Below the pieces are notes generated by a model. It was not told the origin of the DNA, ran no database searches, and was given only the letters and a program-made list of their open reading frames with translations. Positions 1-5,920 of a DNA stretch of 64,000 nucleotides are shown piece by piece. The translations under genes and the position numbers were made by a program. The stretch covers positions 1 through 64,000 of the forward strand of contig JAUIIJ010000014.1 of NCBI GenBank assembly GCA_030431825.1. Direction: 5' to 3'. Each line of letters starts with the position of its first letter. Positions within the stretch are counted from its first letter, which is position 1. This DNA comes from Alphaproteobacteria bacterium (GTDB lineage Bacteria > Pseudomonadota > Alphaproteobacteria > Rhodobacterales > Rhodobacteraceae).

Positions 1-122
1 CGGACGATCGAGAAATTTGAGGGCTCCGCGCCCGGCGCGCTTGCGCCAGACGGGGAACCAGAATACCCAAATCCAACCCGCAGACTCGCGTTATGAATGA
101 GGGAGCCTTAGGGGGCAGGTCA
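1..122 (+). mobile_element. IS3-family element, 3' (right-end) remnant: C-terminal tail of OrfB plus terminal sequence
   Basis: Nt 1-96 translate in frame to RTIEKFEGSAPGALAPDGEPEYPNPTRRLAL*, aligning with the OrfB tail at 5790-5894 ([31 protein letters not shown]). Both are followed by the near-identical end GAATGAGGGAGCCT(TA/CG)GGG(G/C)GGCAGGTCA. Confidence 0.75.
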
Positions 123-330: not shown

Positions 331-882
331 TCATGCGGATTCGCGCGAAATGACGGCTTGGAGATCGGCAGTCACGTCTTGGACACCCGCGGCGTCCCAA
401 ATGTCGTCACGTAGCAAGAACCGATAGCTATTGGTGTGCTTGGTGAACTTGGAGCGGTCCCGCACAACCGATGATGGGATCAAAGCGGCTCGCGTCACAC
501 CAAATTCAGCGTTCAGCAATACACCTGCCAAAACATCGAACCCGGCCAAGTCTCGAATAGCAGACAGTTGGCGGGATGTGTTGTGCTGGTGCAGCCTCCT
601 GCCTTTGATCTGAAAGCGGGTGCCTTCCGCGTCCGTCGCATCGTAGCCTTTGACGGAATTTGCTGCTTGCTCCCACCCAAAGGCGCGGCAGAACAGCCAT
701 TCGGCATAGTCTCCCGTTGGGTTGTTTGCGCTACGTATAACTCCGCGCGCACGCAATTCGTCGAGAATCCCAGTATGGGCCTTGAGTAAATCGGAAACTG
801 AAAGCGTGGCGTAGTCCATATCGCCAGCGTAAGGGCCAATCATGCGAATGTCATTCCGCATCCTCATGCTAGTCCCCCGCAA
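331..882 (-). CDS. Hypothetical protein with PD-(D/E)XK-nuclease-like motif (GYDATDAEGTRFQIKGRR)
   Basis: 183-aa ORF starting 10 bp after the stop of the upstream minus-strand ORF. Contains E...D-x(n)-QIK motif typical of restriction-fold proteins. Confidence 0.6.
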   Translation of the reverse strand: MRGTSMRMRNDIRMIGPYAGDMDYATLSVSDLLKAHTGILDELRARGVIRSANNPTGDYAEWLFCRAFGWEQAANSVKGYDATDAEGTRFQIKGRRLHQHNTSRQLSAIRDLAGFDVLAGVLLNAEFGVTRAALIPSSVVRDRSKFTKHTNSYRFLLRDDIWDAAGVQDVTADLQAVISRESA

Positions 883-891
883 CCGCTGTTT

Positions 892-1614
892 TCAGTCTTT
901 GGTCGATGCCTTTGCTGACTGAAAACGCCAAATGGCATAGTCAAGGTGCAGGGGCGTCCATCGGTGCCCGCGCTGGCAAAGATCCCGCGCAGCCAACCGG
1001 ACGAGAATTGCCGCCTGACGCGGTTGTGGTATTGCGTCCAACTTCAAGGCGTTCCCAACGTATCGCTGCACCATGCGGTCGGGCTTTATTAGGTTATCGT
1101 CACCCGCTAGCATCATGAAATAGTCGAACGCGATACCGCTCGATTGGCCTGGCAAGCCCAAGATTATCGCCTCTGCATATTCCCGGCGGTTTTGCTCGAA
1201 GTCGTCAAAAGTGTTGATACCGGCCTCGGTCAACGCGCGGCAGTAAAGCAGGACCGCTGCGGCCTTGAGGATACCAGATCGCGACGACGTGCGCTGCCTA
1301 TTCTGGAACACGGTATCGGCCATCCCTTCGATTCCAAGAGTGTCGAACAGAGCCACCAGATCACATATCCCGTGTCCACCGGCCCCTCTTGACTCACGCG
1401 ATGAAGCATAACGGGGCCAGTCAGCGTATTCACACAAATTCGCGACCACCTTCTGTGTGCTCGTGTATCGAACTCCAATCGAAAAAACCGCATCGACGAC
1501 GCACAGCGGCAATGATGCGTAGCGGTATTCGTCCGCTAGCGCCGGAGCCATGAGCCCCGATTGTTCGATGTAATCGGCCAGTTTCGAAACTGGCGACGTG
1601 CTGATCAATTCCAA
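892..1614 (-). CDS. Hypothetical protein with helix-hairpin-helix/HhH-GPD-like segment (ILGLPGQSSGIAFDYFMMLAGDDNLIKPDRMVQRYV)
   Basis: 240-aa ORF. The segment resembles the LPGxG..A....LAG....KPDxxVxR pattern of HhH-GPD glycosylases. Apparent operon with the downstream ORF. Confidence 0.55.
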   Translation of the reverse strand: MELISTSPVSKLADYIEQSGLMAPALADEYRYASLPLCVVDAVFSIGVRYTSTQKVVANLCEYADWPRYASSRESRGAGGHGICDLVALFDTLGIEGMADTVFQNRQRTSSRSGILKAAAVLLYCRALTEAGINTFDDFEQNRREYAEAIILGLPGQSSGIAFDYFMMLAGDDNLIKPDRMVQRYVGNALKLDAIPQPRQAAILVRLAARDLCQRGHRWTPLHLDYAIWRFQSAKASTKD

Positions 1615-1630
1615 CCCTGTCGCAATTTGT

Positions 1631-1697
1631 AGACGATAAGTGACGCAAGAAGCGCATCCATCCTACTGACAGTCAATAGTAATGTCACTGATCGTCT
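1631..1697. promoter_or_regulatory. Candidate operator: inverted pair AGACGATAAGTGAC (1631-1644) / GTCACTGATCGTCT (1684-1697)
   Basis: Reverse complement of the first copy is GTCACTTATCGTCT, 13/14 identical to the second. Lies between the divergent HhH-like gene and the XRE gene. CGTCTGTAGACG at 1693-1704 is itself an inverted repeat. Confidence 0.5.
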
Positions 1698-1733
1698 GTA
1701 GACGCATTGGCGACATGCGCCGTCTTTAGCAGC

Positions 1734-1952
1734 ATGGAAATTCGTGCCCGCTTAAGTCTTAACATGCGCCGTTTGCGCCAGTCGAAAGGCTGGTCGCAAG
1801 AGGAGTTTGCGCATGGAGCGGGCCTGCATCGGACCTATGTCAGTGATCTGGAACGCGGTGCTCGTAACCCTACGATCACAGTCGTTGACAAGCTGGCCAT
1901 TGCCTTAGGCGTAAACGTCGGCGCGCTGCTCGACGAGTTGGAAGAAAGATAA
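1734..1952 (+). CDS. XRE-family HTH transcriptional regulator (restriction C-protein-like size)
   Basis: MEIRARLSLNMRRLRQSKGWSQEEFAHGAGLHRTYVSDLERGARNPTITVVDKLAIALGVNVGALL: classic HTH_3 domain. The ORF also has an upstream ATG at 1707. Confidence 0.85.
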   Translation: MEIRARLSLNMRRLRQSKGWSQEEFAHGAGLHRTYVSDLERGARNPTITVVDKLAIALGVNVGALLDELEER

Positions 1953-2083: not shown

Positions 2084-2944
2084 TCAGGCAAGCGTGACAA
2101 GTTCACGGAAGTCGGTCTCGCGGATGATGCGAAGTGGCTGACCTGCGGAAACCAGTCCCTCCGCCTTTCGATGCTTCGATGACTTGTCGTGCCCGGCCAG
2201 CTTGGTCACGTCCATGTCACCAACGACTAGCATGGTCGTCTTCTTGGTGACACTGTTAGCGACGGTGCATCCGACAGAGGCGGCAAGGTCCGCAGCCTCG
2301 CGACGCGGTATTTCAAGTGCACCCGTGAAGACGATCACCTCACCTGCAAAAGGTCCATCGGGATTTCCGTCGCGTTTGATTGAAGCGGAACCGCTCGACG
2401 AGGGGTCAATGGGTTGAAGCACTCGTTTCTGTATCGCGTCGAGGTCGAAACCGCTTTCCTGCATAGCGGCGAGCATGACGTGTCCCGCAGCTTTGGCGTC
2501 CTCCAAAGCGTTGTGATGCTCGAAGGTGTAACCGATCATCTTGCAGACATTCGCAAGGCCGTAGCCCGAGCGCGCGCATTCCGCCCATGTGCGACGAGCA
2601 ACGCGAGCAGAGTCGAGCCACGAACAGGTGGGCGCTGTGATCGACCACCGCGCCGCCGCTTGGTGCATCGCGACGCGGTCGAAATGCGTGTGGGTCACGA
2701 CAACCTGTCCCCCCAAGAAGCGGTCGATCTCGGATACTATATCCCGGAACGTCGGCGCGCCTTGCACGTCCGACTCCTGAATGCCGTGGATCGAGATATT
2801 GACCGGGTCGAAGAAGTCGTCCGGGTCGATCAGCGAATACCACTCCGACGCGAGCGCACCGTCCTCAAAGGCAGCGACGCCGATTGAGCAGAGTGACGCC
2901 ATGTCGGCATTGGCGGTTTCAACGTCGATGGCAACGAATTTCAT
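2084..2944 (-). CDS. DnaQ-like 3'-5' exonuclease (DEDDh) with C-terminal BRCT domain
   Basis: N-terminal FVAIDVETAN...SIGVAAFEDG...HHNALEDAKAAG (Exo motifs) and C-terminal FAGEVIVFTGALEIPRREAADLAASVGCTVANSVTKKTTMLVVGD (BRCT). Confidence 0.85.
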   Translation of the reverse strand: MKFVAIDVETANADMASLCSIGVAAFEDGALASEWYSLIDPDDFFDPVNISIHGIQESDVQGAPTFRDIVSEIDRFLGGQVVVTHTHFDRVAMHQAAARWSITAPTCSWLDSARVARRTWAECARSGYGLANVCKMIGYTFEHHNALEDAKAAGHVMLAAMQESGFDLDAIQKRVLQPIDPSSSGSASIKRDGNPDGPFAGEVIVFTGALEIPRREAADLAASVGCTVANSVTKKTTMLVVGDMDVTKLAGHDKSSKHRKAEGLVSAGQPLRIIRETDFRELVTLA

Positions 2945-3001: not shown

Positions 3002-3559
3002 TTAGAAAGGTACGTCGTCTTCGGAGCACTTCGAGGGGTACTCCCCATCTGCCTTAGGTTCCTCGCCATCGGTGGCTAAGTCCTTTTCAATCATCCGCTC
3101 AAGCGCCTTGCCATAGGCTGGCATCCTCCACGACTTCTCGCCCGCCTCTTTGCCGCGCTCTTCCTGAATGACGTTAATCGGGCTTTTCGGATGCAGCCCA
3201 ATCAAATGGCCCTCGTGGCGTCGCACGCCGCCCGACTTGTTCGACCGCGGCCGCGTCTTCGGTAGATCGTAGAATGCTCGAACCTTTTCCCAATCGTCAG
3301 GGTCAAGCACTTCTTGGAAGAAGTGAAACCGTTCGTCGACTGTGAGTGGGCTGGCTTCCTCGTCGAACAGAAACACACGCCCCTCGGAATCGACGGTGAC
3401 GTTGCGCATGTGCTTCTCGCGGAAGTTGGGTGTCTTGTAGCGTGGCGATTTAATGAACTCGGACTTCATGCACTCAACGTTGAACAACCGCCGCTTCGCG
3501 GTCAAGCGCCTGATGCGAAATGCAAATAGGTGGGATTGGTCGAACTGCCCACGTTGCAA
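3002..3559 (-). CDS. Hypothetical protein (start may be internal Met, MKSEFIKSPRYK...)
   Basis: 185-aa ORF, no recognised family. Confidence 0.45.
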   Translation of the reverse strand: MQRGQFDQSHLFAFRIRRLTAKRRLFNVECMKSEFIKSPRYKTPNFREKHMRNVTVDSEGRVFLFDEEASPLTVDERFHFFQEVLDPDDWEKVRAFYDLPKTRPRSNKSGGVRRHEGHLIGLHPKSPINVIQEERGKEAGEKSWRMPAYGKALERMIEKDLATDGEEPKADGEYPSKCSEDDVPF

Positions 3560-3629: not shown

Positions 3630-3704
3630 TGGCTCCGGCGGTAGGGATCGAACCTACGACCAATTGATTAACAGTCAACTGCTCTACCGCTGAGCTACGC
3701 CGGA
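3630..3704 (-). tRNA. tRNA-Asn (anticodon GTT), encoded CCA
   Basis: Minus strand reads TCCGGCGTAGCTCAGCGGTAGAGCAGTTGACTGTTAATCAATTGGTCGTAGGTTCGATCCCTACCGCCGGAGCCA: complete cloverleaf with CTGTTAA anticodon loop and TTCGATCC T-loop. Confidence 0.96.
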
Positions 3705-5289: not shown

Positions 5290-5920
5290 TTACCCCCCGA
5301 AATTCGGACACTGACATAAGCTACGATTTGCAGTCTGCTGATCTTCGACGAGAAGTAGATCAGAGATGTCGAAACGGAAGCAGCACGCGCCTGAGTTCAA
5401 GGCCAAGGTCGCGCTGGAAGCCCTGAAGGGCGAGGAGACGGCCGCCGAGTTGGCAAGCCGGTTCGGGGTGCATCTTGAACCGACAGGACATGCAAAGCAT
5501 GGCCATAAACTATAAACAGCGCTTCTGCCCGACGTGCCACGACATCCAGTTCACAAGTCGAGCGATCCTGAAGTGGGCCAACGACAACGGTGTCGAAGGG
5601 CATTACATCGATCCCGGCAAACCACAGCAGAATGTCTTTGGCGAGTCATTCAACGGCAGCCTGCGCGATGAACTTCTGAACGACGAGATGTTCGACACCC
5701 TTGAAGACGCCCGACGAAAGCTGACGCCCTGGCGATACGACTATAACAAGGTCAGGCCGCACTCATCGCTCGGGAACCGAACGCCCGCGAAAGCGCGCCG
5801 AACGCTTGAGTTAAATGAGGACTCCGCGCCCGGCGTGCTTGGTCAAACCGAAACCCAAGAATATGAAAACCAGACCTGCAGAGTCTCGTTCTGAATGAGG
5901 GAGCCTCGGGCGGCAGGTCA
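5290..5920 (+). mobile_element. IS3-family element, internally deleted or chimeric remnant (OrfA start fused to OrfB 3' end)
   Basis: OrfA fragment 5366-5515 ([36 protein letters not shown], then out of homology). OrfB C-terminal part 5475-5894 ([48 protein letters not shown]...). Right end at ~5920 matches the window-start remnant. Confidence 0.8.

Follow-up and report, generated by a model that had tools for sequence, protein, structure and literature searches.

A glycosylase-fold protein and a BisI-family nuclease under a divergent XRE controller: a candidate anti-phage module in Rhodobacterales

Introduction

BisI, NhoI and Eco15I are modification-dependent endonucleases of Type IIM. Enzymes of this family cut GCNGC sequences that carry several 5-methylcytosines (5mC) or 5-hydroxymethylcytosines (5hmC), and they are orphan enzymes (PMC11347163; PMC4926085). 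Base excision as a means of immunity has precedent in Brig1 (PMC11078745) and Brig3 (PMC13160076). The closest structural matches of Brig1 are uracil DNA glycosylases (PMC11078745), and its homologue Brig3 has an AAG-like core with a curved beta-sheet (PMC13160076). R.PabI, a glycosylase acting in restriction, has the HALFPIPE fold (PMC10273834).

In this work a stretch of 64,000 nucleotides from the genome of a marine Rhodobacteraceae bacterium (the window) was analysed, near the start of which lie three genes, designated here A, B and C. Like restriction-modification systems regulated by C proteins, the locus has a small XRE regulator, divergent promoters, inverted operator copies and an effector opposite the regulator; unlike them, it has no cognate methyltransferase in the window, and the effector opposite the regulator has a glycosylase fold. 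The first-pass annotation of this DNA had compared the layout with that of controller-regulated restriction systems. The comparison holds for the controller-type XRE gene and for the operator between divergent genes; it fails for the cognate methyltransferase, none being found beside the three genes, as the annotation itself had noted.

Gene A shares with BisI, NhoI and Eco15I the family, the E...D...QxK residues, the Arg/Gln/Ser pocket and the orphan state, and differs from them in its place behind an HhH glycosylase-like gene, with a divergent XRE gene as controller. A glycosylase partner is not mentioned in the BisI-family literature searched. With Brig1, Brig2 and Brig3 gene B has in common the location in defence islands and the proposed base excision on modified phage DNA, and it differs from them in being all-helical with structural matches to HhH-GPD proteins. 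If gene B acts as a restriction enzyme, the principle would be the same as in R.PabI, with an HhH fold instead of the HALFPIPE. The part of the module that deserves most attention is gene B, gene A being a familiar enzyme type.

Results

Organization of the locus

The three open reading frames reported at 331-1952 are present, and the XRE gene (C) is divergent from a unit consisting of genes A and B, as the first-pass annotation had described (Table 1). The open reading frame of gene A spans 331-882 on the minus strand; it is open from 882, its stop codon occupies 331-333, and the likely start is the ATG at 867, upstream of which there is a GGGGG run. That of gene B spans 892-1614 on the same strand and encodes 240 amino acids. 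All three genes are under purifying selection, with dN/dS values of about 0.14 (B), 0.08 (A) and 0.10 (C) in the closest pairs, which excludes that they are chance reading frames. For gene A, dN/dS in the comparison with locus L002 was 0.035/0.419.

Table 1. Features of the locus, with positions in the window
Feature	Position	Strand	Basis or remark
Gene A, BisI/NhoI/Eco15I-family modification-dependent PD-(D/E)XK endonuclease	334..867	-	homology, catalytic residues
Gene B, HhH-GPD-superfamily DNA glycosylase-like	895..1614	-	AlphaFold and Foldseek; no Pfam family
HhH-proximal operator copy, inverted, partial, GTAGACGATAAGTGAC	1629..1644	-	kept in all XRE-HhH loci
XRE-proximal operator (21 bp), TGTCACTGATCGTCTGTAGAC	1683..1703	+	within a longer near-palindrome reaching about 1715
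Gene C, XRE controller-type regulator, 72 aa from ATG	1734..1952	+	Pfam HTH_3 2.1e-17; PADLOC Control_protein 4.9e-19
DEDDh-BRCT exonuclease	2084-2944		right of module
tRNA-Asn	3630-3704		right of module
IS110-like and IS3-family transposase genes			right of module
IS3-type end	18-122		78% identical to copy at about 5816-5920

The neighbours listed by the annotation (a DnaQ-BRCT exonuclease gene, a tRNA gene and insertion sequences) were all found. The IS copies at 18-122 and 5816-5920 bracket a 5.7-kb stretch that holds the module. The loci of relatives contained no homologue of the DnaQ-BRCT gene or of the protein encoded at 3002-3559, and for this reason both were rejected as parts of the module; the DnaQ-BRCT gene probably lies outside it. 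The window and the 94.7-kb contig (C31) share their first base; the contig belongs to a 4.1 Mb genome that is 86% complete. Because the contig begins within the IS3-type end, sequence that once lay beyond gene A has been cut off, and because of the incomplete assembly, absences from this genome are provisional.

Gene A belongs to the BisI family

The nuclease-like gene in which the motif GYDATDAEGTRFQIKGR had been pointed out is gene A, and its assignment to the PD-(D/E)XK enzymes was confirmed by a PADLOC profile (mREase_II, PDLC03212, 7.8e-60) and by sequence matches in the PDB to Eco15I (3.8e-31 over residues 27-174) and NhoI (9.9e-27 over residues 17-177). The GDYAE, GYD and QIK segments of gene A align to the catalytic Glu of helix alpha1, the PD-motif Asp and the QxK of the NhoI and Eco15I sites. 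Mutants of Eco15I showed that all of these catalytic residues are required (PMC11347163). The pocket for the external methyl group, formed in NhoI by Arg84, Gln96 and Ser98, is kept as well: QIKGR and RQLS of gene A align with QVKAR and RQLS of NhoI. Judged by its sequence, gene A is thus a known enzyme type, which would be expected to cut DNA containing 5mC or 5hmC in GCNGC-like sites.

Since BisI-family enzymes cut modified DNA and are orphans, the missing methyltransferase is what would be expected for gene A. No C5-cytosine methyltransferase (PF00145) was detected in its own, 86% complete genome; the control search was positive in 10 of 14 genomes. Gene A is rare, with matches, some of them weak, in 8 of 397 genomes of the family, and as a single-protein query it found no relatives among viral contigs.

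BisI-family genes were also seen in other settings. In two Rhizobiaceae plasmids (L046, 2418-4453, and L047, 2419-4474) a BisI-family gene is divergent from Shedu (SduA, 1.7e-156 in L046). A Roseinatronobacter plasmid (L048, 2955-4519) offers a second example of a BisI enzyme combined with an XRE gene and a nuclease-like protein: there XRE, HNH-like and BisI-family genes follow each other in what looks like an operon.

Gene B has an HhH-GPD fold

The HhH-like segment LPGQSSGIAFDYFMMLAG...KPDRMVQRYV lies in gene B. Pfam, NCBIfam and PADLOC contain no family that matches gene B, a sequence search of the PDB with gene B alone gave no match, and a gene B profile matched only Ogg2, weakly. The AlphaFold model (pLDDT 92.8) is all-helical, and its best 20 PDB matches in Foldseek were all HhH-GPD glycosylases with a probability of 0.92 or higher, although the scores were modest (TMq 0.38-0.61, best E 2.5e-3). 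They include Ogg2 of M. jannaschii, Mag1, Mag2, MagIII and EndoIII; the PDB title of the Mag2 entry describes a glycosylase homolog that sculpts abasic sites. UDG-fold or Brig structures were not among the PDB matches listed. The model and the structural matches thus bear out the HhH fold of gene B. Its role has to be revised: instead of an accessory HhH domain, gene B most likely provides a DNA glycosylase-type effector, to judge from the predicted structure.

In alignments of relatives D179, R180, K177, K117 and G160 of gene B are invariant. In the profile alignment D179, which is invariant in both alignments, coincides with the catalytic Asp that follows the hairpin in Ogg2. The position of the Schiff-base Lys is occupied in gene B by Ile161/Gly160; with the lyase Lys missing, gene B could be no more than a monofunctional glycosylase, if it is catalytic at all. 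Gene B therefore resembles archaeal Ogg2, MagIII, Mag1 and EndoIII in its fold and in having the catalytic Asp on the helix that follows the hairpin, and differs from them in having no Pfam match, no Schiff-base Lys, signatures of its own (NRQRTS and IKPDRM) and an accessory position under an XRE controller. Its rarity (5 of 397 genomes of the family, 9 of 395 of the order) shows that it is accessory and excludes a housekeeping repair enzyme.

Relatives of gene B occur in the Bacillus phages AR9 and PBS1, where they are annotated as N-glycosylase or DNA glycosylase, and on plasmids of Bacillus and of actinobacteria. The single protein found no relatives among viral contigs, and an alignment used as the query found nine. 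A more canonical HhH-GPD-like relative, with GIGAQTIHMFLMYAG...KGDVHIRRFV, is encoded at 5382-6542 of L044 (genome G749) and could bridge the gene B family to the known glycosylases.

Gene C and the operator

The matches of gene C to Pfam HTH_3 and to the PADLOC Control_protein profile agree with the C-protein-type XRE regulator that had been proposed, and it shares 72-92% identity with its counterparts in other XRE-HhH loci. Six XRE-HhH loci, that of the window among them, have the operator TGTCACTGATCGTCTGTAGAC in exact form when one position is left free, and L003 and L062 have it with one mismatch; it is conserved in this way even though identity between the HhH proteins falls as low as 45%. 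At up to 3 mismatches the operator occurs as a single copy in the 4.1-Mb genome (control pattern, 0), and it is absent from the viral contigs. Within the window, a symmetric form of the consensus allowing 3 mismatches matched only at chance level, and the exact 21-mer was therefore used in the searches. Remnants of the operator are present in L018 and L002, in neither of which an XRE gene was found. Its placement and conservation suggest that the XRE protein would bind the predicted operator and regulate the genes on both sides.

The conserved unit is the XRE-HhH pair

Conservation of the three-gene set elsewhere, which had been suggested as a check, was not found. HhH and BisI genes are adjacent in two genomes, that of the window and that of Aliiroseovarius crassostreae, the latter without an XRE gene; as there is only one other genome with this combination, the trio was rejected as one conserved operon. 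What is conserved is the divergent pair of XRE and HhH genes. Besides the window, seven Rhodobacterales loci have this pair (L003, L017, L020, L062, L063, L064 and L065; L020 and L063 are near-identical). Gene B also occurs, intact and conserved, without an XRE gene in L002, L018 and L019.

On the XRE side, L017, L020, L062, L063 and L064 continue with genes for a ParB-domain N6/N4 DNA methyltransferase and DUF5681 proteins. Among 198 genomes of the order, these five methyltransferases have 72-100% identity to the query and no other homologue exceeds 62%, a gap which indicates that a methyltransferase subfamily travels with XRE-HhH. The 86% complete genome of the window contained no homologue of this methyltransferase.

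A nuclease-like protein takes the place of gene B in related cassettes

Eight further XRE-MTase-DUF5681 cassettes (L099-L106) were picked because an XRE gene lies near a methyltransferase gene. In the 13 cassettes, the gene opposite XRE codes for an HhH protein in 5 and for a PD-(D/E)XK-like nuclease in 8; none has both. This mutual exclusion places gene B where a restriction nuclease sits elsewhere. The nuclease-like protein, conserved, about 167 amino acids long and with a Q-x-K motif, occupies the HhH position near XRE in all eight and is weakly similar in sequence and fold to I-Ssp6803I (PDB 2ost). Its model is middling (pLDDT 71.6), and PD-(D/E)XK nucleases are among the first structural matches with no E value below 0.01, hence it is termed PD-(D/E)XK-like only. 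Apparently it is an uncharacterised protein.

The nuclease-type cassettes run on into a terminase gene, which marks them as phage-related, and the cassette methyltransferase could serve the phage and not a restriction system. In L100, L103 and L105 an HTH-fused C5 methyltransferase is encoded at the far end of the cassette. The presence of either a nuclease or an HhH protein opposite one kind of regulator amounts to a natural experiment, in which strand cutting would have been swapped for base removal.

Defence genes in the neighbourhood

The accessory, defence-like setting that had been assumed was borne out by PADLOC matches among the neighbours of gene B in the relatives. Gene B is followed by a BisI gene in the window and L002 and by DRT9 in L065 (2e-154); a HipA_2-like kinase lies downstream of or beside it in L003, PsyrTA next to it in L064 (7e-280 and 2e-117), Shedu and PtuAB (Septu) beside it in L062, and SIR2-HerA beside it in L020. 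Terminase-like genes are common to L002, L003 and L065, which points to one family of integrated elements with varying cargo after the HhH gene. At a threshold of 1e-30, 84 PADLOC families were obtained for 66 neighbours of gene B and 6, all helicase or Mko-type, for 102 control proteins encoded in ten regions chosen arbitrarily from these genomes; with a small control and overlapping PADLOC families these figures are no formal statistic. Taken together, a defence role of the module is well supported. Co-location in defence islands can also arise by hitch-hiking on mobile elements.

Discussion

We regard as reasonably probable that the locus is a laterally mobile, controller-regulated anti-phage module, in which an effector with a glycosylase fold is joined to a modified-cytosine-dependent nuclease. 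The XRE protein would occupy the two inverted operator copies and control how much of itself and of the divergent effectors is made, for which C proteins provide a precedent. The HhH protein would most likely remove a base that marks foreign DNA and so create abasic sites, the activity and the target base being suggested by the fold and the genomic setting. The BisI-family nuclease would cut DNA dense in 5-methyl- or 5-hydroxymethylcytosine at GCNGC-like sites, a specificity predicted from its relatives. The host would be spared, since its genome yielded no C5-cytosine methyltransferase, and phages with modified DNA would face both effectors in parallel.

A different role for gene B would be that of the restriction part of a base-excision restriction-modification system, in which the ParB-domain N6/N4 methyltransferase protects the host and which the copy in the window has lost or swapped. 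The methyltransferase subfamily specific to five XRE-HhH loci in four genera argues for such a system, as do the replacement by gene B of the PD-(D/E)XK-like nuclease of eight related cassettes and the precedent of the R.PabI family for glycosylases as restriction enzymes (PMC10273834). However, XRE-HhH is intact without an adjoining methyltransferase in the window, L003 and L065, and the lack of a homologue in the host genome should be lethal if gene B attacked unmodified DNA. Moreover, the MTase-DUF5681 pair occurs also without XRE or HhH, before a terminase gene, and may belong to phage packaging DNA. We therefore think this role unlikely. In a bolder form, which we put forward tentatively and consider rather doubtful, gene B founds a class of HhH-fold restriction glycosylases that are controller-regulated and replace the cassette nuclease, the partner being, depending on the lineage, the co-evolving ParB-domain methyltransferase or BisI, DRT9 or a HipA-like kinase.

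The fold of gene B is that of repair enzymes and many of its plasmid relatives have no clear defence neighbour, as would be the case if it were a repair glycosylase carried as plasmid or phage cargo, with defence neighbours by chance and gene A as the sole defence element. This explanation does not fit a gene that has a divergent XRE controller to itself and an operator found only once in the genome, and the rarity of gene B and its repeated defence neighbours are at odds with a general repair enzyme, which makes simple cargo improbable. It is also conceivable that C and B form a toxin-antitoxin-like addiction pair that stabilises mobile elements, B damaging DNA when C-dependent repression is lost. 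The divergent two-gene layout with a small XRE regulator and the occurrence in integrated elements and between insertion sequences would suit such a pair, but gene B is intact without XRE in L002, L018 and L019, so that B is tolerated without C, and we rate an addiction function as very unlikely.

If, as in the anti-phage module that we favour, gene B attacks phage DNA, the HhH-GPD fold of repair glycosylases also has an immune branch. The significance of this lies in the context that the Brig defence glycosylases are not HhH-GPD proteins and that R.PabI has a fold of its own. Since relatives of XRE-HhH recur among anti-virus genes, they may represent a mode of attack on viral DNA about which little is known.

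As to the base that gene B might remove, its BisI partner is a pointer to modified cytosine as a candidate substrate. The plant proteins ROS1 and Demeter are HhH-GPD enzymes. Both excise 5mC (PMC10273834), and a modified cytosine is therefore a reasonable first candidate for gene B. Excision of all 5mC is unlikely, because in L064 a C5 methyltransferase is encoded about 6 kb from gene B. Phages AR9 and PBS1 have uracil DNA and carry a relative of gene B, which makes plain uracil an unlikely target, at least in the phage branch. In AR9 the relative (L007, 3935-4645) is found in the same region as a gene for a uracil-DNA glycosylase inhibitor, which makes its substrate puzzling. In L067 (G357:C32, 3640-6264) genes for a PfkB-like protein, a QueC-family protein (Pfam, 8.5e-34) and an HhH glycosylase-like protein that differs from gene B and is more canonical (GVGPKT...VDRHI) stand in a row, which is possibly linked to 7-deazaguanine chemistry in DNA.
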